The notes beneath the pieces are model-generated. The model worked only from the letters and a program-made list of their open reading frames with translations, was not told where the DNA came from and did not search any database. Position numbers and translations under genes: made by a program. A stretch of 37,007 bases of DNA, taken from contig DATAOI010000113.1 of the NCBI GenBank assembly GCA_036265815.1, positions 80,300 to 117,306 of the forward strand, read 5' to 3'. Shown one piece after another: positions 24,983 to 37,007 of this stretch. This DNA comes from Gemmatimonadales bacterium (GTDB taxonomy: Bacteria; Gemmatimonadota; Gemmatimonadetes; Gemmatimonadales; GWC2-71-9). Each line of letters opens with the position of its first letter. Within the stretch, counting starts at the first letter, position 1.

Positions 24983-25011
24983 TTGACACGTGATTTTGCG
25001 CGCTTCATATT
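24983..25011 (+). promoter_or_regulatory. sigma-70-like promoter of the surface-protein operon
   Basis: TTGACA (24983-24988) and CATATT (25006-25011) with a 17-base spacer; the -35 is perfect. Transcription would start near 25018, about 177 nt before the receptor gene. Confidence 0.7.
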
Positions 25012-25194: not shown

Positions 25195-28100
25195 ATGAAG
25201 CAATGCCGTGTCAGCGCCTTCGCACGCGTTGCGCGACTCATCGCGCTCGCGGCAGTCGCGATGGGATGGGGAGCCGGCTCGCTCCTCGCCCAGGGTTCGA
25301 CTGGTAAAATCGAAGGCAGGGTAAGAGACCAGGCGGGCGCGCCGATCGCCACGGCCCAGGTGTTCGTGGTCGGGACCGCGTTCAACGCCCTCACCAACGC
25401 GCAGGGCTACTACTTCATCAACAACGTTCCCGCCAGCACAGTGGCGGTTCGCGCCGCGTTCATCGGGTACAAATCGACCCAGGTGGAAGGGGTCAAGGTC
25501 CTGGCCGGCCAGACCATCACGGTCGATGTGCAGCTGGAGCAGACGGCGGTCCAGATCCAGGAGATCACGGTCGTCAACCAGACCCAGCCGCTGGTGCCGC
25601 GCGACGAGGTTACCACCAAGCAGCGGGTGGACGGCCAGTTCGCCGATAAGCTGCCGGTGGACCGGATCAACCAGGTGCTGCAGCTGCAGCCTGGCGTCTC
25701 GGCGGACAATAACGGACAGCTCTCGATTCGCGGCGGGCGGAACAACGAAGCCGCGACCTACATCGATGGCGTGCCGGTGCAGGCGGGCTACCGCGGCGAC
25801 CGGTTCGCGGGCTCGGCAGGCACTTCGATTAGCGTCAGCACCAACTCATTCGAAGAGGCGTCGGTGACCACCGGCTCCTCCTCGTCCGAGTTCGGCAACG
25901 CCAAGTCGGGCATCATCTCTATCGTCACCAAGACCGGCGGCACCGACTACGTGGGCTCGGCGTCCTACGAGACCGACGAGCCGTTCGGCGTGAATCACGG
26001 ACCGGGGTTCAACCGGTTCGAGGGCAGCTTCTCCGGGCCGCTGGCGGGCCGGCTCACCTTCGCGCTCTCGGGCACCCTCGAGGGCCAGAAGAGTGTGGAG
26101 GAGGGGTTCGGCAGCACCGACGCGCCGATCTTCCTGGCGGCGGGGGTCGATACCACCATCCGGCAGCTCAGCGTGCTGGACGATCCGGCCACCCCGTTCG
26201 ACGAGAGCACCAACGCTGACACCACCCTGGTGGACATCAACAACTTTGCCGTCTCCCGGGGGAACTGCGATCAGTTCGCCAACGCCGGAGCGGACGGCAC
26301 CGACGATTACATCCAGAAGATCCAGAGCAACTTCGGGCTGGATTGCCAGGGGGTGCGTCTGCCCGCCACGGCCCGGACGCTCTACACCGCCGCGGGCAAG
26401 CTGAACTACTCCTACGGCACCGGCTCCCGGGTGGCCCTCAGCGTGGCCACCAGCCGGAACCAGGGGCACAACCTGCCCATCTCCATCATTCGGTACCTGA
26501 ACGCGCTCTCCGTGCCGGGGAACGTGAACGGGTTCTACAACCGGAACTATCTCAGCACGTTCAACTGGACCCAGAACCTCTCCAAGAGCGCGGAGCGGGC
26601 GCTGGCGCTGGACGTGGCCCTGTCCTATCAGCAGGACAAGACGCAGAACGGGCCACTGACGGTGGAGAGCGATCTCGGCACCCGGGATCCGTTCGGCGGG
26701 TTCGTGCTCAAGCCGATGCACTTCCTCTTCGGCTTCGACAACTTCCCCATCGACGACCAGCTGATCTCGAACGTCCGGAAGAACGAGGGCCGGATCACCC
26801 CGGTCGACGTGGAGAACAGCACGCAGTACAACTACGTGGACGAACTGCGGAACGATGCCTACGGCGTGTACGGCAAGTACGCCGGCTTCTTCAACACCCT
26901 GGGCGGCGACATCTGGAGCTTCGGCGAGTCGGGCGGTCCGTCCGGCAGCATTACCGGTGCCCAGCGGCTGAGTCTCTACAAGGAGCAGCGGTACATCGGG
27001 AAGGCCACCCTCGACTGGCAGGCCGACCGGTACAACCGGCTCAAGCTGGGCGGCGAGTTCACCCGCTACTCGATCGACGACTACACCTTCCGCTTCCAGG
27101 ACAAGTTCTTCTCCGATGCCTATAAGGAAAAGCCGATCCGGTGGAACGGCTTCCTGGAAGACCGGCTGGACCTGGGTGATGTGGTCGTCGTCGGTGGTCT
27201 GCGCTACGACTATTACGACACCCGCGCCTCCCGGCCGTTCGTGAGCGACACGCTGGGGAACACCTACGCCTTCCCCCGGATCGCGAGCTACGGCTTGGTG
27301 ACCCGGAACAACGGGCAGGACACCGTGGCGCTGGGCTTCGATCCCGACAACCCGACCGCCAACTTCGTGCGGGACAAGAGCCACAACTACCTGAGCCCGC
27401 ACATTCAGGTGTCGTTCCCGGTTACCGACAAGACCAACTTCCGGCTGTCGTACTCGCACCAGGTGCAGACGCCTGACTTCTCCCTACTGCTGGGCGGCGA
27501 GAACATCGACATCGGGTTCACCAACACCAACCAGGTGTACGGCGCCGACCTCGATTTCGGCAAGACCATCGCCTTCGAGTTCGGCATCCGGCACGCGTTC
27601 AGCGACGACATGGTGCTGGACGTGGCGGCGTACAACAAGGACATCGTCTCCGATCCTGCGGCACGATTGGTCAGCCTCTTCGATCCGGTCGCGGGCCGGA
27701 GCCTCGACTTCCGGGTGCTCACCAACCTGGACTTCGGCAACGTGCGCGGGCTCGACGTCCGGCTCGACCGGCGGTTCGGCAACTACTTCAACGGCACGGT
27801 GTCGTACTCCTACCAGCAGGCCAGGAACACGGGATCGGATCCGTTCACCTACACCAACTACGGCTCGCGCATCGTGAACCAGGTCGGCGGCAACAACGGT
27901 GCCCAGCCGCCACCGCAGGGCATTCTGCCGACCGACAACAGCCGTCCGCACACGGTCTCCGGGGCGTTCTCGATCAGCCTTCCGGGCGACTGGAAGCGGG
28001 GCTCTGCCATCGGCAACGTCTTCCGCAACGTGAGCCTGTTCTCCACCTTCCGCTATGCCAGCGGAACGCCCTACAGCAAGTGCGGCTTCAGCAACGATGA

Positions 28101-28680
28101 GATCAGCGTGCTCTCGGTCGAGAACTGCGTGCGCAACTTCCCCGAGGGGCTCAACACCCAGCGGCTGCCCTCCATTAAGGAGTTCAACACCAAGCTGACC
28201 AAGAACTTCTCGGTGGGCGGGCTGGACCTCACCGGTTATCTGGACGTGCGCAACGTGCTCAACTTCAAGAACATCGTCCAGGTGTTCGCGCTCAACGGCG
28301 ACGTGCAGAGCTCGCTGGAGCGGGAAGCAAACAACCGGGCCGATCTGGATGACCTGGCCTCCGAGCGGGACCTGAACAAGAAGGCCATCGCGGACCCCTC
28401 GGATCCCTCGGCCGACCCCGCCATTGATCTCAGGTTCGGCGGCGTCAGTGACCCGCGTACCAAGTGCACCAATTGGGTCAGCAGCAAGAACAGCGCGCCG
28501 GCAGCCGCCAACTGCGTCTACCTGATCCGGGCGGAGGAGCGGTTCGGCAACGGGGATCACATCTTCACGGTCGACGAGCAGAGCAACGCCGTCAATTCCC
28601 TGTACGACGCCGCCCGCGGTGAGCAGGAGATGACCCTGCCTGGTCGCCGGGCCCGGCTCGGATTCGAGATCAACTTCTGA
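25195..28680 (+). CDS. TonB-dependent receptor with carboxypeptidase-like N-terminal domain
   Basis: The 1161-residue outer-membrane protein starts with a signal peptide (cleavage near residue 32, SLLAQG). A carboxypeptidase regulatory-like beta-sandwich follows (KIEGRVRDQAGAPIATAQVF, about residues 38-115), then a plug domain (INQVLQLQPGVSADNNGQLS, IRGGRNNEAATYIDGVPVQA, about 150-245). A long beta barrel (FRLSYSHQVQTPDFS, LDVRNVLNFKN) ends in the outer-membrane signature RARLGFEINF. This is the SusC-like/OAR-type of receptor that imports or handles large ligands with TonB energy. The ATG at 25195 has a GGAGG site upstream. It heads the surface cassette with a secreted protein, a PorV-like protein and a GWxTD protein. 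Confidence 0.93.
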   Translation: MKQCRVSAFARVARLIALAAVAMGWGAGSLLAQGSTGKIEGRVRDQAGAPIATAQVFVVGTAFNALTNAQGYYFINNVPASTVAVRAAFIGYKSTQVEGVKVLAGQTITVDVQLEQTAVQIQEITVVNQTQPLVPRDEVTTKQRVDGQFADKLPVDRINQVLQLQPGVSADNNGQLSIRGGRNNEAATYIDGVPVQAGYRGDRFAGSAGTSISVSTNSFEEASVTTGSSSSEFGNAKSGIISIVTKTGGTDYVGSASYETDEPFGVNHGPGFNRFEGSFSGPLAGRLTFALSGTLEGQKSVEEGFGSTDAPIFLAAGVDTTIRQLSVLDDPATPFDESTNADTTLVDINNFAVSRGNCDQFANAGADGTDDYIQKIQSNFGLDCQGVRLPATARTLYTAAGKLNYSYGTGSRVALSVATSRNQGHNLPISIIRYLNALSVPGNVNGFYNRNYLSTFNWTQNLSKSAERALALDVALSYQQDKTQNGPLTVESDLGTRDPFGGFVLKPMHFLFGFDNFPIDDQLISNVRKNEGRITPVDVENSTQYNYVDELRNDAYGVYGKYAGFFNTLGGDIWSFGESGGPSGSITGAQRLSLYKEQRYIGKATLDWQADRYNRLKLGGEFTRYSIDDYTFRFQDKFFSDAYKEKPIRWNGFLEDRLDLGDVVVVGGLRYDYYDTRASRPFVSDTLGNTYAFPRIASYGLVTRNNGQDTVALGFDPDNPTANFVRDKSHNYLSPHIQVSFPVTDKTNFRLSYSHQVQTPDFSLLLGGENIDIGFTNTNQVYGADLDFGKTIAFEFGIRHAFSDDMVLDVAAYNKDIVSDPAARLVSLFDPVAGRSLDFRVLTNLDFGNVRGLDVRLDRRFGNYFNGTVSYSYQQARNTGSDPFTYTNYGSRIVNQVGGNNGAQPPPQGILPTDNSRPHTVSGAFSISLPGDWKRGSAIGNVFRNVSLFSTFRYASGTPYSKCGFSNDEISVLSVENCVRNFPEGLNTQRLPSIKEFNTKLTKNFSVGGLDLTGYLDVRNVLNFKNIVQVFALNGDVQSSLEREANNRADLDDLASERDLNKKAIADPSDPSADPAIDLRFGGVSDPRTKCTNWVSSKNSAPAAANCVYLIRAEERFGNGDHIFTVDEQSNAVNSLYDAARGEQEMTLPGRRARLGFEINF

Positions 28681-28695
28681 TTCCCTGCCTCCCCT

Positions 28696-28728
28696 TGCGG
28701 GCCCGTCCGCCTCGCGGACGGGCCCGCA
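28696..28728 (+). other. strong intergenic stem-loop
   Basis: TGCGGGCCCGTCCGC (28696-28710) pairs perfectly over 15 bp with 28714-28728 around the loop CTC. It lies 15 bp after the receptor stop and 36 bp before the next start, with no T-run directly after it (TTTT occurs 15 bp on). It could partially terminate the transcript or protect mRNA ends. Confidence 0.8.
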
Positions 28729-28763
28729 GGGCGGCGGCGCGGGTTTTCCTCAAGGAGGACGGG

Positions 28764-31700
28764 ATGCGTTTCTCGCGTTGTCTGCGCAGTGTGATGCGGG
28801 CGGCCACGGTGGCGGTGGCAGTGAGCACAGCCGTCACGACCATGGCTCACGCCAGGCCACGGCCGAGGCCGGGACAGGGCTTCCGGCTCTTCTCCAGCGC
28901 CCTCACCATCATCGAGGCCAACCGGGTGCAGTGCCGGGTGTCGTCCGACGGGCAGCTCTGCGCGACGGGGTCGTCGACCGTGGGCGGCGGCATCTGGCCC
29001 AAGGGTACGGCCGACCAGTACATCTTCGCTGGGGGACTCCAAGTGGGCGGGGTGGTCGATCCCAGCCAGGCCAAGTCAGTGAACGGCTTCGCCGGCGATA
29101 CGGCGGGCGCGTTCCTTTACAACACCTCGGGTACCAGCAACGGCACGGCGCTGCGCCCGATCTTCGCGTCGGTCGATCCGGCCGATGCGGCGGCGTGGCC
29201 GGTCGAGGCACGGGTGCCCTGCTCGGATCCCGCAACAACGACGATTCCGGGCGGCCTGCCGCCCGAGACCATCGCCCGATGCGACTCCGCCGGGGTGGGC
29301 GGCGATCCGACCGGCGACCTCTTCGACCCGGCCCTGCAAGGCAAGATCTCGGCGTCACAGGGTGATCACTGGCTGCTCTACTGGGAAGGGGATCCCTCCA
29401 ACCTCGCGTCGCGGAAGCACCCGCTCGGCATCCTGGTGGAAACCCGGGCGCTGGCGTGGAACTTCCCGACCGGCAACGAGGACATCCTGTACTTCCTCTT
29501 CACCTTCTACAACGTCACCAGCGGCCGGGACGACGACTATCTGGGCATCCGGTCGTCGCTGCGGCCGTTCATTCAACAGAAGGGCAAGGATTTCCGGGCG
29601 CTCAACACCGCCAAGTTCGGTGTGGCGTTACCCGAACAGGGCTACCTCATCAAGGACATCTTTGTCGACGTGGTGAACGACATGGACGTGGCCAACGCCA
29701 ACGCCAACTACTCTGGCGTGAACGTCCCGTTCGCCCTGGGCTACACCTACGAGAACGACTTCAGCCAGTCGGTGACCCAGAGTCTGGGCTGGACCTTCGA
29801 TCCGGCCATCTTCGGTTCGGCGCCGTTCTTCCCCGGCGTCGGGTTCGGGGCCGTGAAGTATCTCAGGAGCCCCATCAACCCCATCACCGGAGAGCAGGTC
29901 GGGCTGAGCCTCTTCGGCACCTTCTCCAACAGCGTGGGGTCGCTGACCGACCCGAATGACGACAAGCAGCTCTATCGCTACATGACCGGGCATCTGCTCC
30001 CGACAGACGGGTCCTGCTCGCTCAATCCCGACGTCACCAAGATCTGCTCGGTCAATCTCGACAGCCCGGTCGACATGCGGTTTTACCAGTCGTCGGGCCC
30101 CTTCGATCTGGCGCCAGGCCAGTTCGGCTCGGTCGTGGCCGCGTACATTTTCGCGCCGCCGGTGGCCGATGGAAACTGCCCGGGCGCGAGCTGCAACGTG
30201 AAGGCGGCCGACGGCGGAGATCCCAATCGGCTCACCATTCTGGGCGACGCCGCCCGGATGGCCGGCGGGGTGAACCAGATCGATCGCATGACCGGGTTTA
30301 AGAGCTTCAATGACGCCGACGGCGACGGCGTGGTCACCCAGAACGAGATGACGGTGGTCCCCGGCTCGCTCCTCGGCAAGGCGCTGGTAGCCCAGAGCGT
30401 CTTTGACACCCGTTTCCTGCTGCCGTTCTCCCCCGAGGCGCCGCCCTTCTTCCTGGTGCCCGGAGACAACCAGGTCACCGTGCTCTGGACTCCCTCGGCC
30501 ACCGAGACGGTGCCCGATCCGTTCTTCGCGGTAGCATCCACTCCGCTCAAGTCCGATGGAACCATCAATATCGCATACGATCCCAACTTCCGCGCGCTCG
30601 ATGTGGAGGGATACCGGGTCTATCGCGGACGGACCAGCAACCCGAGCCAGCTGACGCTCGTCGCGCAGTTCGACTTCGCGCCCGACGCGACGACCGGCAA
30701 GGGCATCTTCAACGACTTCCGGGGAACGGTGAACCCGGACGCTGATTGCGCGCCCGAGCTCGGGATCACCACGAGCTGCCCGGTCGCCTTTGAAACGCCG
30801 CCGGCAGGCACGGCGTTCACCGTGTCGAATCCGGTCGACTTGACTGGCACGGTCACGCAGGTCAAGCCGGGTAACCGCGTGGCTCTCGCCTCCGGCAAGG
30901 CGCAGGTCCTGCCGGGCTCCCTCGATACTGCCTTCGCCGACATTAGTCACGGCTCGCGCATCGGGACCGGGGTGTCGACCGAGCTGGCCAATACCGGGGT
31001 ACCCTACGCCTTCACCGATGTCGGAGTGCGCAACAGCGTGCGCTACTTCTACGCCGTCACGGCGTTCGACATCAACTCGACCGTGTCCGGTCCTTCGAGC
31101 CTCGAGTCGGGCCGCATCGCCAAGGCGGTGACACCGGTGGCTTCGCCCAGCAACGTCGCGCTGGCCCAGCTCTCGTTCGGCGTCTTCGGCGACGACAACA
31201 CCGATCTCAGCCAGGAGGCCGTCTCGTTCTCGATCGACGACCAGACCGGCCGGTTCAACGGCCCGCCGCCGCCCACCACGGCGGTAGGGGCCACGTTCCA
31301 GCCGCTGGTCCGTGCTCTCCTGCCGGCGGTGAACCTGACCGCGACCATCGATTCGATGAAAATCCGCGCGTTGGGCGCTGCCTACCCAGGCGATGGCATT
31401 GCAGCGTTTGATTGCCAAGGCAAGGACAACGGTCAAGGCCTCTGCATGCAGTACTTCATCACCTTCAACAAGGACGGCACCCTCTCCTCGTCCAGCACCG
31501 TGGTCAACCAGCCCATCCTGACCACGACGTTCGGCGACCCGATTTCGGTCGAGGCGCCGGCGGGACAGGTCCCCATCAACCCCGAGCCTGCCGCACTGCA
31601 GAAGTACGGCATCCCGGGGGGTGCCACCACCTTCAATGCGTCGCTCTCGTTGAACATCGGGCAGGAGGGCCAGTGGTCCGCCGGCGAGAACTTCAATGGC

Positions 31701-32849
31701 CGCCGCGATCTGGGCAGCATCTCCCCGGGTGGGTCGCGCTGGTTCGACGGTGCCAACGAGACGCTGGACGATCCGACGTACTCGATCCGGGTCGGCCACG
31801 TCGCCGGAGTGGATTCGATCTTCGCCCCACTGAGCCATATCGACCAGGACCCGGTGACTCCTGGGGTACAAGCACCTGCTCCGAGCGTGTGCATGCAGAC
31901 GTTCCTCTACGCGCTGGCCCCCTTCGGCCGCCAGGCTGATATCGAGCTGACCTGGGGGGACGGCGGCACGATCGCCTCGGTGCGGGACATCACCCACCAC
32001 ATCGATGTGCCGTTCAAGGATACGCCACAGGGAAGCTGGGGCTTCGTTCCCGATGCGAACGGCAACGGAAAGATCGATTGGATGGACATCACCCAGGTCG
32101 AGGAGATCTCGCAGGCCGTCAACGAGATCACCTTCTGCGATGCCACCAACGTCGACCCGGCCATCGACCTCCCCGCTCCGGGTGCTGGCGCGAAGCTGGG
32201 CCAGACCGCCGTGGTGACGCCGACGTCCACGACCACCAGCACGACAGATCCGGCGCTCCAGCTGTCGACGGGCCAGGGCTTCGGGCTCTACCTGGCCGGC
32301 CACTTCCACATCTTCCAGCTCACCGGCGGTGCACTGCCGGCCGCCGGGACCAAGTGGACATTGCGGAGCTACTCGGGCACGGTCACGGCCTCCAAGAATG
32401 CGGAGACCACCGATCCGAGCGGCTATGCATTCGCGCCGATCGTCAGCTCGCCGGCGATTCCGGGACTGCAGGTCAAGTTCAGCGTTCCGGCGGCCACCAC
32501 GGCCGTGGCCGCCACCAAGGGCGACCTCTCCAGCGTACACACGGTGCCGGACCCGTACTATGTTCGGAGCGCGTTCGAGTCCAGCACCGATCAGAAGATT
32601 CTCAAGTTCGTAGGCTTGCCGCAGGACGCGATCATCCGGATCTATTCCGCGAGTGGTGTGCTGGTGCGCATCCTGGAGCACCACTCGGGAGGGTACGATC
32701 CGACCAGCGTCTCGCAGGGCAGTGAGACGCAGTGGGACCTGCGAAACCGGAACAACCAGGTGGTCGCGAGCGGGGTGTATTTCTACCACATTGAAGCCGG
32801 TGACGCCCGCAAGGTCGGCCGCTTCACGGTTGTGAACTTCGCCCAATAG
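28764..32849 (+). CDS. giant secreted protein with type IX-secretion-like C-terminal domain
   Basis: The 1361-residue product has an N-terminal export signal (MRAATVAVAVSTAVTTMAHA). The body has no named family. A fibronectin-III-like segment (NQVTVLWTPSATETV then DVEGYRVYRGRTS) lies near residues 570-640. EF-hand-like calcium loops occur at 517-528 (DADGDGVVTQNE) and 1097-1108 (DANGNGKIDWMD). The last about 100 residues (TVPDPYYVRSAFESS, IIRIYSASGVLVRILEH, ETQWDLRNRNNQVVASGVYF, YHIEAGDARKVGRFTVV) match the pattern of type IX (Por) sorting or FlgD-like domains. The ATG at 28764 has AAGGAGG 5 bases upstream. It lies between the TonB receptor and the PorV-like gene, so it is likely the cargo or substrate of this cassette (inference). 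Confidence 0.88.
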   Translation: MRFSRCLRSVMRAATVAVAVSTAVTTMAHARPRPRPGQGFRLFSSALTIIEANRVQCRVSSDGQLCATGSSTVGGGIWPKGTADQYIFAGGLQVGGVVDPSQAKSVNGFAGDTAGAFLYNTSGTSNGTALRPIFASVDPADAAAWPVEARVPCSDPATTTIPGGLPPETIARCDSAGVGGDPTGDLFDPALQGKISASQGDHWLLYWEGDPSNLASRKHPLGILVETRALAWNFPTGNEDILYFLFTFYNVTSGRDDDYLGIRSSLRPFIQQKGKDFRALNTAKFGVALPEQGYLIKDIFVDVVNDMDVANANANYSGVNVPFALGYTYENDFSQSVTQSLGWTFDPAIFGSAPFFPGVGFGAVKYLRSPINPITGEQVGLSLFGTFSNSVGSLTDPNDDKQLYRYMTGHLLPTDGSCSLNPDVTKICSVNLDSPVDMRFYQSSGPFDLAPGQFGSVVAAYIFAPPVADGNCPGASCNVKAADGGDPNRLTILGDAARMAGGVNQIDRMTGFKSFNDADGDGVVTQNEMTVVPGSLLGKALVAQSVFDTRFLLPFSPEAPPFFLVPGDNQVTVLWTPSATETVPDPFFAVASTPLKSDGTINIAYDPNFRALDVEGYRVYRGRTSNPSQLTLVAQFDFAPDATTGKGIFNDFRGTVNPDADCAPELGITTSCPVAFETPPAGTAFTVSNPVDLTGTVTQVKPGNRVALASGKAQVLPGSLDTAFADISHGSRIGTGVSTELANTGVPYAFTDVGVRNSVRYFYAVTAFDINSTVSGPSSLESGRIAKAVTPVASPSNVALAQLSFGVFGDDNTDLSQEAVSFSIDDQTGRFNGPPPPTTAVGATFQPLVRALLPAVNLTATIDSMKIRALGAAYPGDGIAAFDCQGKDNGQGLCMQYFITFNKDGTLSSSSTVVNQPILTTTFGDPISVEAPAGQVPINPEPAALQKYGIPGGATTFNASLSLNIGQEGQWSAGENFNGRRDLGSISPGGSRWFDGANETLDDPTYSIRVGHVAGVDSIFAPLSHIDQDPVTPGVQAPAPSVCMQTFLYALAPFGRQADIELTWGDGGTIASVRDITHHIDVPFKDTPQGSWGFVPDANGNGKIDWMDITQVEEISQAVNEITFCDATNVDPAIDLPAPGAGAKLGQTAVVTPTSTTTSTTDPALQLSTGQGFGLYLAGHFHIFQLTGGALPAAGTKWTLRSYSGTVTASKNAETTDPSGYAFAPIVSSPAIPGLQVKFSVPAATTAVAATKGDLSSVHTVPDPYYVRSAFESSTDQKILKFVGLPQDAIIRIYSASGVLVRILEHHSGGYDPTSVSQGSETQWDLRNRNNQVVASGVYFYHIEAGDARKVGRFTVVNFAQ

Positions 32850-32859
32850 CCTACGGGAG

Positions 32860-32881
32860 CGGAGGCCCCGAGGGGCCTCCG
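32860..32881 (+). other. intergenic stem-loop
   Basis: CGGAGGCCC (32860-32868) pairs with GGGCCTCCG (32873-32881) around CGAG. It lies just after the giant protein gene and just before the ribosome site of the PorV-like gene; followed by TTCC but no T-run. Confidence 0.75.
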
Positions 32882-32906
32882 TTCCACCTTCAGGAGATTG
32901 CACACC

Positions 32907-34049
32907 ATGATGAAGCGCACCGCACCAGGTTGGCTCTTCGCGCTCGGAGCACTCGGCTGGTTGCCGGCCGGCGCCGCCGCGCAGGCACAGCCGGGTAACA
33001 GCAACGACAATACCGGATTCGGGACCACGTCGGCGGAATTCCTGCTCCTCGGCGCCGGCGCACGCGGGACGGCGCTGGGCGGAGCCTTTTCCTCCATCGC
33101 GACCGACGTCAGCTCGCTGTATTACAACCCGGCCGGCGCCGCGCTGATGGAACGGCCGGGTCTGATGATCGGCACCTTCGATTACGTGGCGGATACCCGC
33201 TATTCCTGGGGAGGGGTCGGATTCCCCTTCTCCGGCGGGAGCCGGACCATCGGCGTCCAGCTGGGCACCTTCGGCTTCAAGGACCAGCCGGTATACACCG
33301 AAGATCAGCCGGATGGCACCGGAAGCACCTACTCGGTCAGCGAGACCTTCGTCGGCCTGACGCTGGCCCAGCAGTTCTCCGATCGATTCTCCGCAGGTAT
33401 TACCGGGAAGTACATCAACGACAAGCTCGGCACCGTCAGCGGCAATGCCTTCGCGGTCGACTTCGGCACCAACTTCCACGCCACCCTCAGCAACCATCCC
33501 ATCAAGTTCTCCTTCGTCCTGGCGAACCTGGGATCCAACCTGTCCTACGAGGGTACCGGCGTGCAGCCGGCCACGGGCGTGCCGCGCAGCCCGATCGACG
33601 ATCCGGAAGGCGACGTACCCACGCTCCCGGACCCGGCCAACCTCCGGACCAAGGATTTCGGCTTGCCCACCACCTTCCGAGTCGGTCTGGCGTACGACGT
33701 GCTTTCGGGAGACAACAGCCATCTGACCGTACTGGGTGACTTCAACCAGCCCAACAGCAATACGCCGGGCTTCGTGGTCGGGAGCGAGTGGATGTCGGAG
33801 AAGCTGGGCGGCTCCAACTTCGGCTTCGCTCTCCGCGGCAGCTACAGTTATACCGGTGCCAACAACATCGAGCCCAGCGCGGCGTCTCCGACAGCGCTGA
33901 GCGACGAAGAGAATCTGCAGGGACTCGCCTTCGGTGGCGGTCTCATGTACGGGAATGGCGGAGGGTTCAGCCTGGGCCTGGACTACGCATACAAGTACCT
34001 CGGCGTGCTGGGGCCGACCAACTTCTTCAGCTTCACGCTGGGGTGGTAG
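32907..34049 (+). CDS. PorV/PorQ-family outer-membrane protein
   Basis: The 380-residue product has a signal peptide (WLFALGALGWLPAGAAAQA). The PorV/PorQ (UPF0164-like) signature follows: SAEFLLLGAGARGTALGGAF, then DVSSLYYNPAGAA. A beta-barrel (GGFSLGLDYAYKYLGVLG at the end) completes the chain. In Bacteroidota, PorV delivers type IX cargo from the translocon to the attachment complex. ATG 32907 is taken (TTG 32898 is too close to the AGGAG site); ATG 32910 is also possible. It directly follows the gene whose product bears a sorting-like C-terminal domain, so the pair may form a cargo/shuttle unit. Core type IX components (PorK-N, Sov/SprA, PorU) are not in the window. Confidence 0.88.
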   Translation: MMKRTAPGWLFALGALGWLPAGAAAQAQPGNSNDNTGFGTTSAEFLLLGAGARGTALGGAFSSIATDVSSLYYNPAGAALMERPGLMIGTFDYVADTRYSWGGVGFPFSGGSRTIGVQLGTFGFKDQPVYTEDQPDGTGSTYSVSETFVGLTLAQQFSDRFSAGITGKYINDKLGTVSGNAFAVDFGTNFHATLSNHPIKFSFVLANLGSNLSYEGTGVQPATGVPRSPIDDPEGDVPTLPDPANLRTKDFGLPTTFRVGLAYDVLSGDNSHLTVLGDFNQPNSNTPGFVVGSEWMSEKLGGSNFGFALRGSYSYTGANNIEPSAASPTALSDEENLQGLAFGGGLMYGNGGGFSLGLDYAYKYLGVLGPTNFFSFTLGW

Positions 34050-34083
34050 GAATCAGCGCCCCTGGTACGTGTCGTCTTACTGA

Positions 34084-35520
34084 GTGATACACGTGGCGAG
34101 ATTGATCGTAGTTGCAGCTTTGGCGGTCCTCGCGGCGCCACTGGCGCCGCAAGGCCCGTCCGATGGGGGTCTCGTATTGCGCGCGGTGCGCTCCTTCCGG
34201 CCGGAAGAAGGCCGGACCGAAGTGAACGCGTTCGTGCAGGTGCCCTACTCGATGATGGGCCCGACCGTGGAAGGCGAGGGTGGGGCCTTGAGCTACCAGG
34301 TCACGGTGCGGGTCACCGACTCGACTGGACTGACGCTGCTGCAGAACGCCTGGCAGAATCACGCTCCGGCAGAGGTCCGGTCGCCGGACGCGTCGGCGGT
34401 GGACATGGTCCACTTCTCCATCGCGCCTGGCAGGTACCGCCTGGAGGTGGCGGTCGTCGATTCGGTGTCCGGACGCCGTGCGGCGTCGGCCGTGGATCTC
34501 GAGGGCTTTGCCGCGGCTCCCCCGGCATCGGACCTGTTGCTGTCGCCCCAGATCCGTCCGGCGACCGCCACCGATACGGTGCCGCGCCCGGCCGAGCTCC
34601 GCTGGGGGAAGATGCTGGTCACGGCGGCGGCCCGCTTGGAGCTCACGCCGCTCCGGCCCACCGCCTACTACCTGCTGGAGGCGTATTCGGGCAAGGAAGA
34701 GAAGGGAACCCTGAGTCTCCGGGTGACCGATTCGACCGGCAAGGTCCTGGTACGGACACCGGCCACTCCCGTCACCGTTCCGCAGGGGGGCGGAGTACTG
34801 AAGGGTCAGGTCGATCTGGCAGGGCTGCCCGGCGGAACCTACACCATGACGGCGGCACTCAGCCTGTCCCAGAGCGTGGAGCGGTCGGCCATGTTCACCA
34901 TGGCCAACATCGGCGAGACCCTCACCCGGACGGTGGCCCGGCGGGAGGCGAACAAGATCACCGACGAGGGGTACTTTGCCGCCATGGCCGCGGCGGAGCT
35001 GGACGCCGCCGAGGAGCCCCTGGCGGTCATCGCGAGATCGGGCGAGCTGAGAGCCTACGACAAGACCCTGAGCGCGAACGCCAAGCGGCGCTTCCTCACC
35101 GACTTCTGGCAGCGGCGCGATCCCACGCCCGGGACGCCGCGGAACGAGAGCAGGGACGCGTTCTACCAGGCGATCGTCTACGCCAACGAGCACTACCGGG
35201 AGGGAGGGCGGACTCGCCCCGGCTGGAAGTCGGACCGAGGGCGGATCTTTCTCAAGAACGGCCCTCCCGACGAGACGTTGCAGCGTGAGCAGCAGGCCCT
35301 GGCGCCGCCGTATGAGGTCTGGCGGTACCGCACCGGGAAGGACAGGTGGTATTGCTTCGTCGACCGCTCCCGTGGCGTTGGGCTCTTTCAACTGATCCAC
35401 TCGAATGACGTGAACGAATCCGGGCTGCCCAACTGGCGGGAGATTCTGACCCCGGAAGCCTTGCAGGACGTCGGACGGTTCCTGGGGATCGACTTCTTCG
35501 ACCGGAGCAGGGAGCAATAG
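34084..35520 (+). CDS. GWxTD-domain protein, exported
   Basis: The 478-residue product has an N-terminal signal-like segment (LIVVAALAVLAAPLAPQ) and two beta-sandwich regions (ALSYQVTVRVTDSTGLTLLQ; GTLSLRVTDSTGKVLVRTPA). The GWxTD domain at about residues 330-400 has FLTDFWQRRDPTPGTPRNES, RDAFYQAIVYANEHY, RPGWKSDRGRIFLKNGPPDE. The diagnostic motif reads GWKSD rather than GWxTD. This domain is common in Bacteroidota and Gemmatimonadota surface or gliding-related loci, but its function is unknown. The GTG at 34084 is taken; GTG 34093 is an alternative, and the ribosome site is weak. It follows the PorV-like gene by 34 bp. Confidence 0.88.
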   Translation: MIHVARLIVVAALAVLAAPLAPQGPSDGGLVLRAVRSFRPEEGRTEVNAFVQVPYSMMGPTVEGEGGALSYQVTVRVTDSTGLTLLQNAWQNHAPAEVRSPDASAVDMVHFSIAPGRYRLEVAVVDSVSGRRAASAVDLEGFAAAPPASDLLLSPQIRPATATDTVPRPAELRWGKMLVTAAARLELTPLRPTAYYLLEAYSGKEEKGTLSLRVTDSTGKVLVRTPATPVTVPQGGGVLKGQVDLAGLPGGTYTMTAALSLSQSVERSAMFTMANIGETLTRTVARREANKITDEGYFAAMAAAELDAAEEPLAVIARSGELRAYDKTLSANAKRRFLTDFWQRRDPTPGTPRNESRDAFYQAIVYANEHYREGGRTRPGWKSDRGRIFLKNGPPDETLQREQQALAPPYEVWRYRTGKDRWYCFVDRSRGVGLFQLIHSNDVNESGLPNWREILTPEALQDVGRFLGIDFFDRSREQ

Positions 35521-35583: not shown

Positions 35584-37007
35584 ATGAATCGCTTTAAACT
35601 TGGTTTGGTTGGTCCGATCACCCTTCTTCTGGCAGTCGGCTGCAGCGGCGACCCGACGAGCGACCTGCAAAACGGGCTCGACCACCTGACTGCGTCTCCG
35701 ACGCAGCTCTTCGTGGAACCGGGGAACTCGAAGACGGTCGAAGTGACCGGCGTCGACGGACAGGGGAATCCGCTGGAGCTTTCCTTCGTGGTGACGCCGG
35801 CCAGCTCCGCGATCACGGTCAAGCGCGATTCGACCTTTCACCCGGTCTACGTGAACGATACCCTCCTGGCCGTCCCGCCGGTGGCGACGCGGTGGCGGTT
35901 CATCGTGACGGGTGTCACCTACGCGAAGACGGCCTTTACGATCAAGTCGGAAGGCGATAGCCTGGTGGTGCCGGTCCAGGTGGTCCCGCAAAGCACGATC
36001 CTGGCCACCTTCGACAACGACTCCCCGGCCCTCGGCCAGGCCGTGACGCTGACGGCACCTGCGGGCAACACCTTCGCGTCCGACGCCGCGCTCCTGATCG
36101 GGGGAGACCCGACTCGCCCCCTGACGATCACGGCTCGCGCGGCCGATGGCTCCTCCATCACCTTCATCCCGCCGCCCAACGTCGCCTCACCGATCACCGT
36201 CACGAAGGTGACCTCAGTCGGTGCGCCGTCGCTGACGTACTCGCCTACAACGCAGGCGCTATTGACGACCCCGGTCATCGATACGGTGGACGTGACCTAT
36301 TCGACGCCGACGCCGGCGCTGGGCGCGACGGTCACGATGTCGATCACCAATCCGCTCATCAAGTTCGACACCGCGACGGCGATCGCGTTCGAGGGCCAGT
36401 TTGGTGGACCGGCGGCAGGTCCGGCGGCGATCACGCCGGCGGCGGACAGCAGCAGCCTCACCTTCCAGGCACCACCCAACGCGAACGGGCTGGCGACGGT
36501 CACCTCATTCGTGTTCCCTGGGGGCTACGCAATCGCCTTGCCGACGCGCACCGGGATCGTGACCGCGGGGCCGCTGCCGGATACGGCCGACGTGACCATA
36601 TCGAATCTGAACCCGCCTCTGCTCGCGCCGATCACCATTACCCTGCCTGGGAACTTGACGTTCGGTGCGGCGGCAGATGACTCCGTCTTCTTCGGCAGCA
36701 ACGCCGCAATCATCCAGGCGGTGAACGGGGGTGGCACGAGCATCGACGTCATCCCGCTCCCGGGCTCGGTCGGCCGCCCGCGGCTCGTGGGTGTGTTCCC
36801 GACCGGCTTCCCGCAGTTCTTGCTGTCGATGCAAGCGGATGACAGTGTGACTGTGCCGGAGCTCACTCCGCTCACGGGAACGGACGATCCGGCGACGGCA
36901 CCGGACATTACGGCCTCGATCCCGTTCACGCTGACCGACCTCGGGACGTGGGCCAGCACGAACTGCGGAACGACCTCGGGTTCCACCTCTTGCCAGGTCT
37001 ACAAGCT
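35584..37007 (+). CDS. repeat-containing lipoprotein (3' end cut off)
   Basis: The frame is open from ATG 35584 to the window edge (474 codons). The N-terminus (MNRFKLGLVGPITLLLAVGC) is a lipoprotein-type signal with Cys20 as the likely lipidated residue; the box AVGC lacks the usual Leu at -3. An Ig-like region (LTASPTQLFVEPGNSKTVEV) is followed by three related modules of about 95 residues, starting near STILATFDNDSPALGQAVTL, VDVTYSTPTPALGATVTM and ADVTISNLNPPLLAPITI, that read like IPT/TIG or Ig-like beta sandwiches. Coiled or catalytic motifs are absent. It lies 63 bp after the GWxTD gene and may extend the surface operon. Confidence 0.85.
   Translation, partial: MNRFKLGLVGPITLLLAVGCSGDPTSDLQNGLDHLTASPTQLFVEPGNSKTVEVTGVDGQGNPLELSFVVTPASSAITVKRDSTFHPVYVNDTLLAVPPVATRWRFIVTGVTYAKTAFTIKSEGDSLVVPVQVVPQSTILATFDNDSPALGQAVTLTAPAGNTFASDAALLIGGDPTRPLTITARAADGSSITFIPPPNVASPITVTKVTSVGAPSLTYSPTTQALLTTPVIDTVDVTYSTPTPALGATVTMSITNPLIKFDTATAIAFEGQFGGPAAGPAAITPAADSSSLTFQAPPNANGLATVTSFVFPGGYAIALPTRTGIVTAGPLPDTADVTISNLNPPLLAPITITLPGNLTFGAAADDSVFFGSNAAIIQAVNGGGTSIDVIPLPGSVGRPRLVGVFPTGFPQFLLSMQADDSVTVPELTPLTGTDDPATAPDITASIPFTLTDLGTWASTNCGTTSGSTSCQVYK

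Follow-up and report, generated by a model that had tools for sequence, protein, structure and literature searches.

Most descriptions treat type IX secretion as a machine of the Bacteroidota that needs a PMF-driven motor and often a sortase; the PorU sortase is absent in some Bacteroidota too. In F. johnsoniae, the C-terminal domain (CTD) of the cargo binds loops of PorV inside SprA, motor energy then pulls the PorV-cargo complex out sideways, and the GldLM motor is needed for release of that complex from SprA (PMC10994853). The CTDs of PorU and PorZ are not removed after secretion (PMC11285876), and it has been proposed for Sphingobacteriia that cargo is left on PorV without PorU, PorQ, and PorZ (PMC7323717). 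Type IX secretion has been suggested for Gemmatimonadetes (PMC11285876); however, another survey restricts it to Bacteroidetes (PMC4793230).

In this study, we have analyzed a gene cassette from a Gemmatimonadales genome that we interpret, with a probability of roughly 0.6, as a reduced type IX unit dedicated to the export and surface assembly of essentially one cargo. Like the SprA-PorV systems with type A CTDs of F. johnsoniae and P. gingivalis, it has SprA/Sov, a PorV-family carrier, and a Sec-dependent cargo with a type A-like CTD. Unlike those systems, it belongs to a different phylum, PorU was not found, no credible match to GldL, GldM, or GldN was obtained, essentially one cargo is involved, and the cargo gene adjoins the PorV gene, near sprA in relatives. 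The preliminary description of this DNA had regarded adjacent cargo and shuttle genes as an unusual layout; however, this arrangement was already known, since 9 of 12 type B CTD genes in F. johnsoniae adjoin a gene for an SprF-like (PorP-like) shuttle (PMC12618676). Those pairs resemble the present locus in placing the cargo gene beside the carrier gene and in their specific cargo-carrier pairing, whereas here the CTD is type A-like, the carrier belongs to the PorV/PorQ family, and a TonB receptor stands in front. It is the encoding of a type A-like CTD next to a PorV-family protein that is unusual, and we found no description in the open-access literature of such a cargo near sprA and with a TonB receptor.

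Two other systems invite comparison. The PorZ/PorU-PorV/PorQ attachment complex of P. gingivalis shares a CTD of the same (uncleaved) subtype and a PorV/PorQ-family barrel; however, the passenger encoded here is neither a beta-propeller nor a sortase, and PorU was not found. Likewise, SusCD receptor-lid systems encode a TonB receptor with a CarboxypepD_reg domain together with a surface partner, but the putative partner here is not SusD-like and is instead a CTD-bearing protein with its own PorV. The SusC/RagA model TIGR04056 gave 28.9 bits against a cut-off of 368, and there was no SusD match among the cassette proteins.

Cassette anatomy and gene order

The window, by which we mean the whole stretch of 37,007 nucleotides that was analyzed, covers positions 80300 to 117306 of contig C113 of a 4.59-Mb, 99% complete Gemmatimonadales MAG, and the cassette lies at the end of that contig. 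The genes for the receptor, the cargo, the PorV-family protein, and the GWxTD protein are all on the plus strand, in the order and at the positions given in the preliminary description; with the following Ig-like gene, there are five genes on the same strand.

24983-25011, plus: sigma-70-like promoter match in the 489-bp gap 5' of the receptor gene, no more frequent than in shuffles (1 match; 1.2 expected)
25195-28680, plus: TonB-dependent receptor with N-terminal CarboxypepD_reg and Plug domains, conserved upstream of the cargo
28696-28728, no strand: perfect 15-bp GC hairpin between the receptor and cargo genes, where most relatives have a comparable hairpin
28764-32849, plus: cargo, a 1361-aa Sec-exported protein with a terminal type IX CTD
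28869-30422, plus: N-terminal domain of the cargo, a predicted super-beta-sandwich (mean pLDDT 82.9)
30441-31136, plus: weak FnIII-like region of the cargo, with low-probability fibronectin matches and the motif VEGYRVYRGR
32514-32846, plus: type IX C-terminal sorting domain, from sequence profile and predicted fold
32860-32881, no strand: perfect GC hairpin in the cargo-PorV spacer
32907-34049, plus: PorV/PorQ-family outer-membrane barrel (NF033709, 136.7 bits; cut-off 90)
~34084-35520, plus: GWxTD-domain secreted protein, start codon uncertain (TIGR04514, 90.1 bits; cut-off 28)
35584-37007, plus: Ig-like probable lipoprotein with an AVGC lipobox, cut by the contig end, with a homologue at the same place in several relatives

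The intergenic gaps measure 34 to 83 bp, a Shine-Dalgarno-like GGAGG precedes the receptor ATG at 25195, and similar sites lie 5' of the cargo and PorV genes; the short gaps, the single strand, and these sites suggest that the genes form an operon. A promoter and terminator scan was uninformative. The hairpins on both sides of the cargo gene have no U-tracts; in most relatives, hairpins of different sequence occupy the same two spacers. Their placement suggests a role in segmental mRNA stability or in attenuation, by which protein ratios could be set. PADLOC gave no match, and the idea of a defense system was rejected on that ground.

A single-sequence search found no relatives of the cargo, whereas an alignment-based contig search yielded 70 named loci, almost all of them in Gemmatimonadota/Gemmatimonadales MAGs. 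At these loci, wherever the neighborhood could be tested, the PorV gene lies directly downstream of the cargo gene (48 of 53), the TonB receptor gene lies upstream (36 of 39), and a GWxTD gene follows downstream (41 of 46). In the family to which this cassette belongs (f1) and in a sister family (f3), the order receptor-cargo-PorV-GWxTD is kept wherever contigs reach. These counts, together with the span across both families, reject chance adjacency and bear out the earlier view of the four genes as one cassette. Some exceptions to the order (L062, L093) are artefacts of alignment ends. Extra cargo copies occur in some MAGs (L077, L083, L126, L129), several of them without an adjacent PorV gene (L077, L126, and L129); these copies may rely on the PorV encoded in the main cassette. 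Cargo loci were also seen in records titled Acidobacteria, Chloroflexi, and Zixiibacteriota (L064, L084, L108); the MAGs concerned are probably mislabelled or of mixed origin.

In a second sister family (genomes G056 and G058), the genes for a receptor, a CTD protein (~1430 aa), and PorV follow one another in the same order (L056, 9886-14169; L057, 5145-9464). Only the CTD of that protein aligns with the present cargo (hhalign probability 97%, last 105 columns); judging from this alignment, its passenger has either been replaced or has diverged beyond recognition.

The sorting domain and the passenger

The CTD is the best conserved part of the cargo, with 59 to 78% identity among relatives with the same cargo versus 39 to 53% overall. 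It had been described beforehand as type IX-like. The domain from the window scores 22.0 bits against TIGR04183 when isolated and 15.3 bits within the full protein, against a curated cut-off of 23; all 17 members of the CTD family match this model at an E value of 0.1 or lower (best, 4.1e-7), and all 17 also match the PorZ model. When the family profile was compared with 177,635 PDB sequences, the best matches were PorZ (E value, 0.003) and PorU (0.019). An AlphaFold2 model of the CTD, superposed on known structures, gave the P. gingivalis PorZ CTD as the top match (Z score, 12.5; rmsd, 1.7 Å over 89 residues) and the PorU CTD with a Z score of 9.5; lower matches, namely, the CTD of mirolase (8.7) and that of NucA within the translocon (8glk; 8.5), were tied with unrelated Ig-like domains. 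By its predicted fold, the domain is, as the preliminary description had supposed, a type IX sorting domain; it is type A-like in character.

The CTD profile has one match in this genome and one in nearly all carrier genomes, and TIGR04183 finds a second, weak match here in a secreted stand-alone CTD-like protein of 145 aa on contig C67. These matches point to a system for one large cargo, or perhaps for two substrates, which fits the earlier suggestion of a dedicated unit. The 145-aa protein (L200, 5798-6232, minus strand; G000:C67) adjoins clpB and consists almost entirely of a signal peptide and a domain that resembles FlgD and type IX CTDs. Other CTD-like proteins in relatives are ORFs of about 800 aa.

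By inspection, the cargo begins with a signal peptide of approximately residues 1 to 31, with cleavage at AHA|RPRP. Residues ~36 to 553 form the predicted super-beta-sandwich, which resembles the N-terminal domains of GH15/65/94/116 enzymes such as glucoamylase, cellobiose phosphorylase, and GH116 (9ju0: Z score, 19.0; rmsd, 3.3 Å over 253 residues; 1lf6: Z score, 18.4); no catalytic barrel of those enzymes was seen in the aligned region of the cargo. The weak FnIII-like region follows, and Pfam has no family for the passenger. Function cannot be read from similarity of fold; glycan binding is thus a lead only, and a glycan ligand is doubtful.

The translocon and the components that were not found

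The barrel encoded downstream of the cargo belongs, as proposed earlier, to the PorV/PorQ family by the score listed above, and the PorV and PorQ equivalog models stay below their cut-offs. It is the only member of the family found in this genome, and PDB PorV (6h3i_F) matches it weakly in sequence (E value, 0.016). The preliminary description had named SprA/Sov, PorK-N, and PorU as genes to be sought. SprA/Sov was found (C78:9398-15478, 2026 aa; TIGR04189, 477 bits; cut-off 200; E value of 2.6e-22 to PDB SprA 6h3i). The protein is divergent in family f1, with 477 bits from a model of 2319 positions.

SprA was detected in 48 of 61 genomes searched. A cargo or CTD match was present in 29 of these 48 genomes and in none of the 13 SprA-negative genomes (Fisher p, 6e-5, a value that ignores shared ancestry). 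The other 19 SprA-positive genomes have no cargo or CTD match; hence, SprA is not linked exclusively to this cargo. In two genomes in which SprA was not detected (G020 and G059), PorV-family proteins are present as well.

In six relatives (G012, G015, G022, G027, G040, and G046), the cassette and sprA share a contig and an orientation, with sprA approximately 10 to 19 kb downstream, and the order is largely the same: cassette, permease, lptF/G (on the opposite strand), sprA, M28, comEA-like, and pilB. In G050, the contig is long enough but sprA lies elsewhere, and in G056 and G058 the two are unlinked. In the present genome, the cassette is at the end of C113 and sprA is at the start of C78, with fitting spacing; the two contig ends have no shared word of at least 15 bases, so linkage in this genome is inferred only from the relatives. 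Several relatives have a second TonB-receptor-like gene between the cassette and sprA (L044, 15731-19303, OMP_b-brl_4; L191, L193, L194). The M28 protein beside sprA (L040, 15514-16410) has glutamine cyclotransferases as its best PDB match (6qro; E value, 2.7e-53). A glutamine directly follows the likely signal peptidase site in the receptor, PorV, and SprA; the pyroglutamate "Q-rule" has been reported as Bacteroidetes specific (PMC5837995).

PorU, GldL, GldM, and GldN were sought as well and were not recovered. Matches to the PorU model NF033707 cover only the CTD in the 61 genomes, with none over the cut-off and none over the catalytic region, and PorU had no match in this genome at 1e-3. 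The highest GldL score across 298 genomes was 19.2 bits (cut-off 68.3), in a search that included no positive-control genome; GldM had no match in 61 genomes, likewise without a positive control, and GldN had none in 61 genomes, where the control genomes were silent too. As the searches included no positive-control genome, the absence of GldL, GldM, and GldN is put at likely. Thus, with PorU not found and no credible GldL, GldM, or GldN, a complete canonical type IX system is not established.

A proposed reduced export unit and its alternatives

It can be envisaged that the cargo would enter the periplasm by Sec and that its CTD would bind extracellular PorV loops within the SprA pore; the PorV-cargo complex would then exit laterally into the outer membrane, as described for F. 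johnsoniae. On the sequence evidence, export of the cargo through SprA and PorV is likely. With no PorU found and a CTD that most resembles the uncleaved PorZ/PorU class, this domain would probably be retained and the cargo would stay docked on PorV, an outcome to which we give slightly better than even odds. The TonB receptor gene is constantly upstream, which suggests a surface complex for uptake in which the docked cargo would act as the partner of that receptor, an arrangement like that of SusCD although built from unrelated parts; judged by gene order alone, the chances of such a partnership are even. Because the N-terminal sandwich fold is common in carbohydrate enzymes, the cargo would perhaps be a glycan- or polymer-capturing lid over the receptor, and the GWxTD and Ig-like proteins would be accessory envelope proteins. 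The powering of release speaks against this best explanation and is left unexplained by it, since GldLM is needed in F. johnsoniae and no credible GldL, GldM, or GldN was found here. A motor-less type 9 route may be imagined, in which one cargo and its own PorV leave SprA together without GldLM. Release would then draw its energy either from the folding and docking of the cargo or, via the upstream receptor, from TonB-ExbBD, and the receptor, PorV, and cargo would end as a permanent complex on the surface; we consider this route distinctly unlikely.

The cassette might instead be one cargo locus of a complete canonical type IX system whose divergent motor, ring, and sortase were missed by the profiles. 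The divergence of SprA itself in f1 would fit such a system, as would the other CTD-like proteins of relatives and the stand-alone protein of this genome, and the GldM and GldN searches, having matched nowhere, do not establish absence. However, SprA and PorV were readily detected in the same genomes, the GldL scores stayed far below the cut-off across all 298 genomes, the PorU matches cover only the CTD, and nearly all carriers have a single A2-type CTD; a complete system is therefore unlikely. The leading position of the TonB receptor, the carbohydrate-enzyme-like fold of the cargo domain, and the PorV-family proteins of G020 and G059 would fit a SusCD-analogous uptake locus, with a receptor and a surface protein exported by another route, in which the PorV-like barrel would be only a FadL-like porin. 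Against such a locus stand the type IX fold of the CTD, the strict adjacency of the cargo and PorV genes, the restriction of the cargo to genomes in which SprA was found, the position of sprA near the cassette in relatives, the lack of a SusD-like protein in the cassette, and the poor SusC score, and we regard it as very unlikely. Finally, the C-terminal domain could be a structural Ig domain like that of FlgD and play no part in sorting, in an ordinary envelope gene cluster: Ig-like folds are widespread, 7 of the 17 family members match a FlgD model weakly, and the cargo CTDs of G046 and G048 give weak matches to PF13860 (FlgD_ig). PF13860, however, has no match in this genome at an E value of 0.01, type IX CTDs are the top matches in both sequence and structure, and SprA is present; the FlgD-only reading of the domain was rejected on the first two grounds, and an ordinary envelope cluster is hardly credible.

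In conclusion, a conserved Gemmatimonadales locus with one cargo, one PorV, and sprA nearby in relatives offers a minimal natural system for finding out which components of the machinery are indispensable, what powers the release of carrier and cargo when no motor is recognizable, and in what way type IX export may be coupled to TonB uptake. The locus also points to a likely family of surface proteins in a phylum that has received little study.
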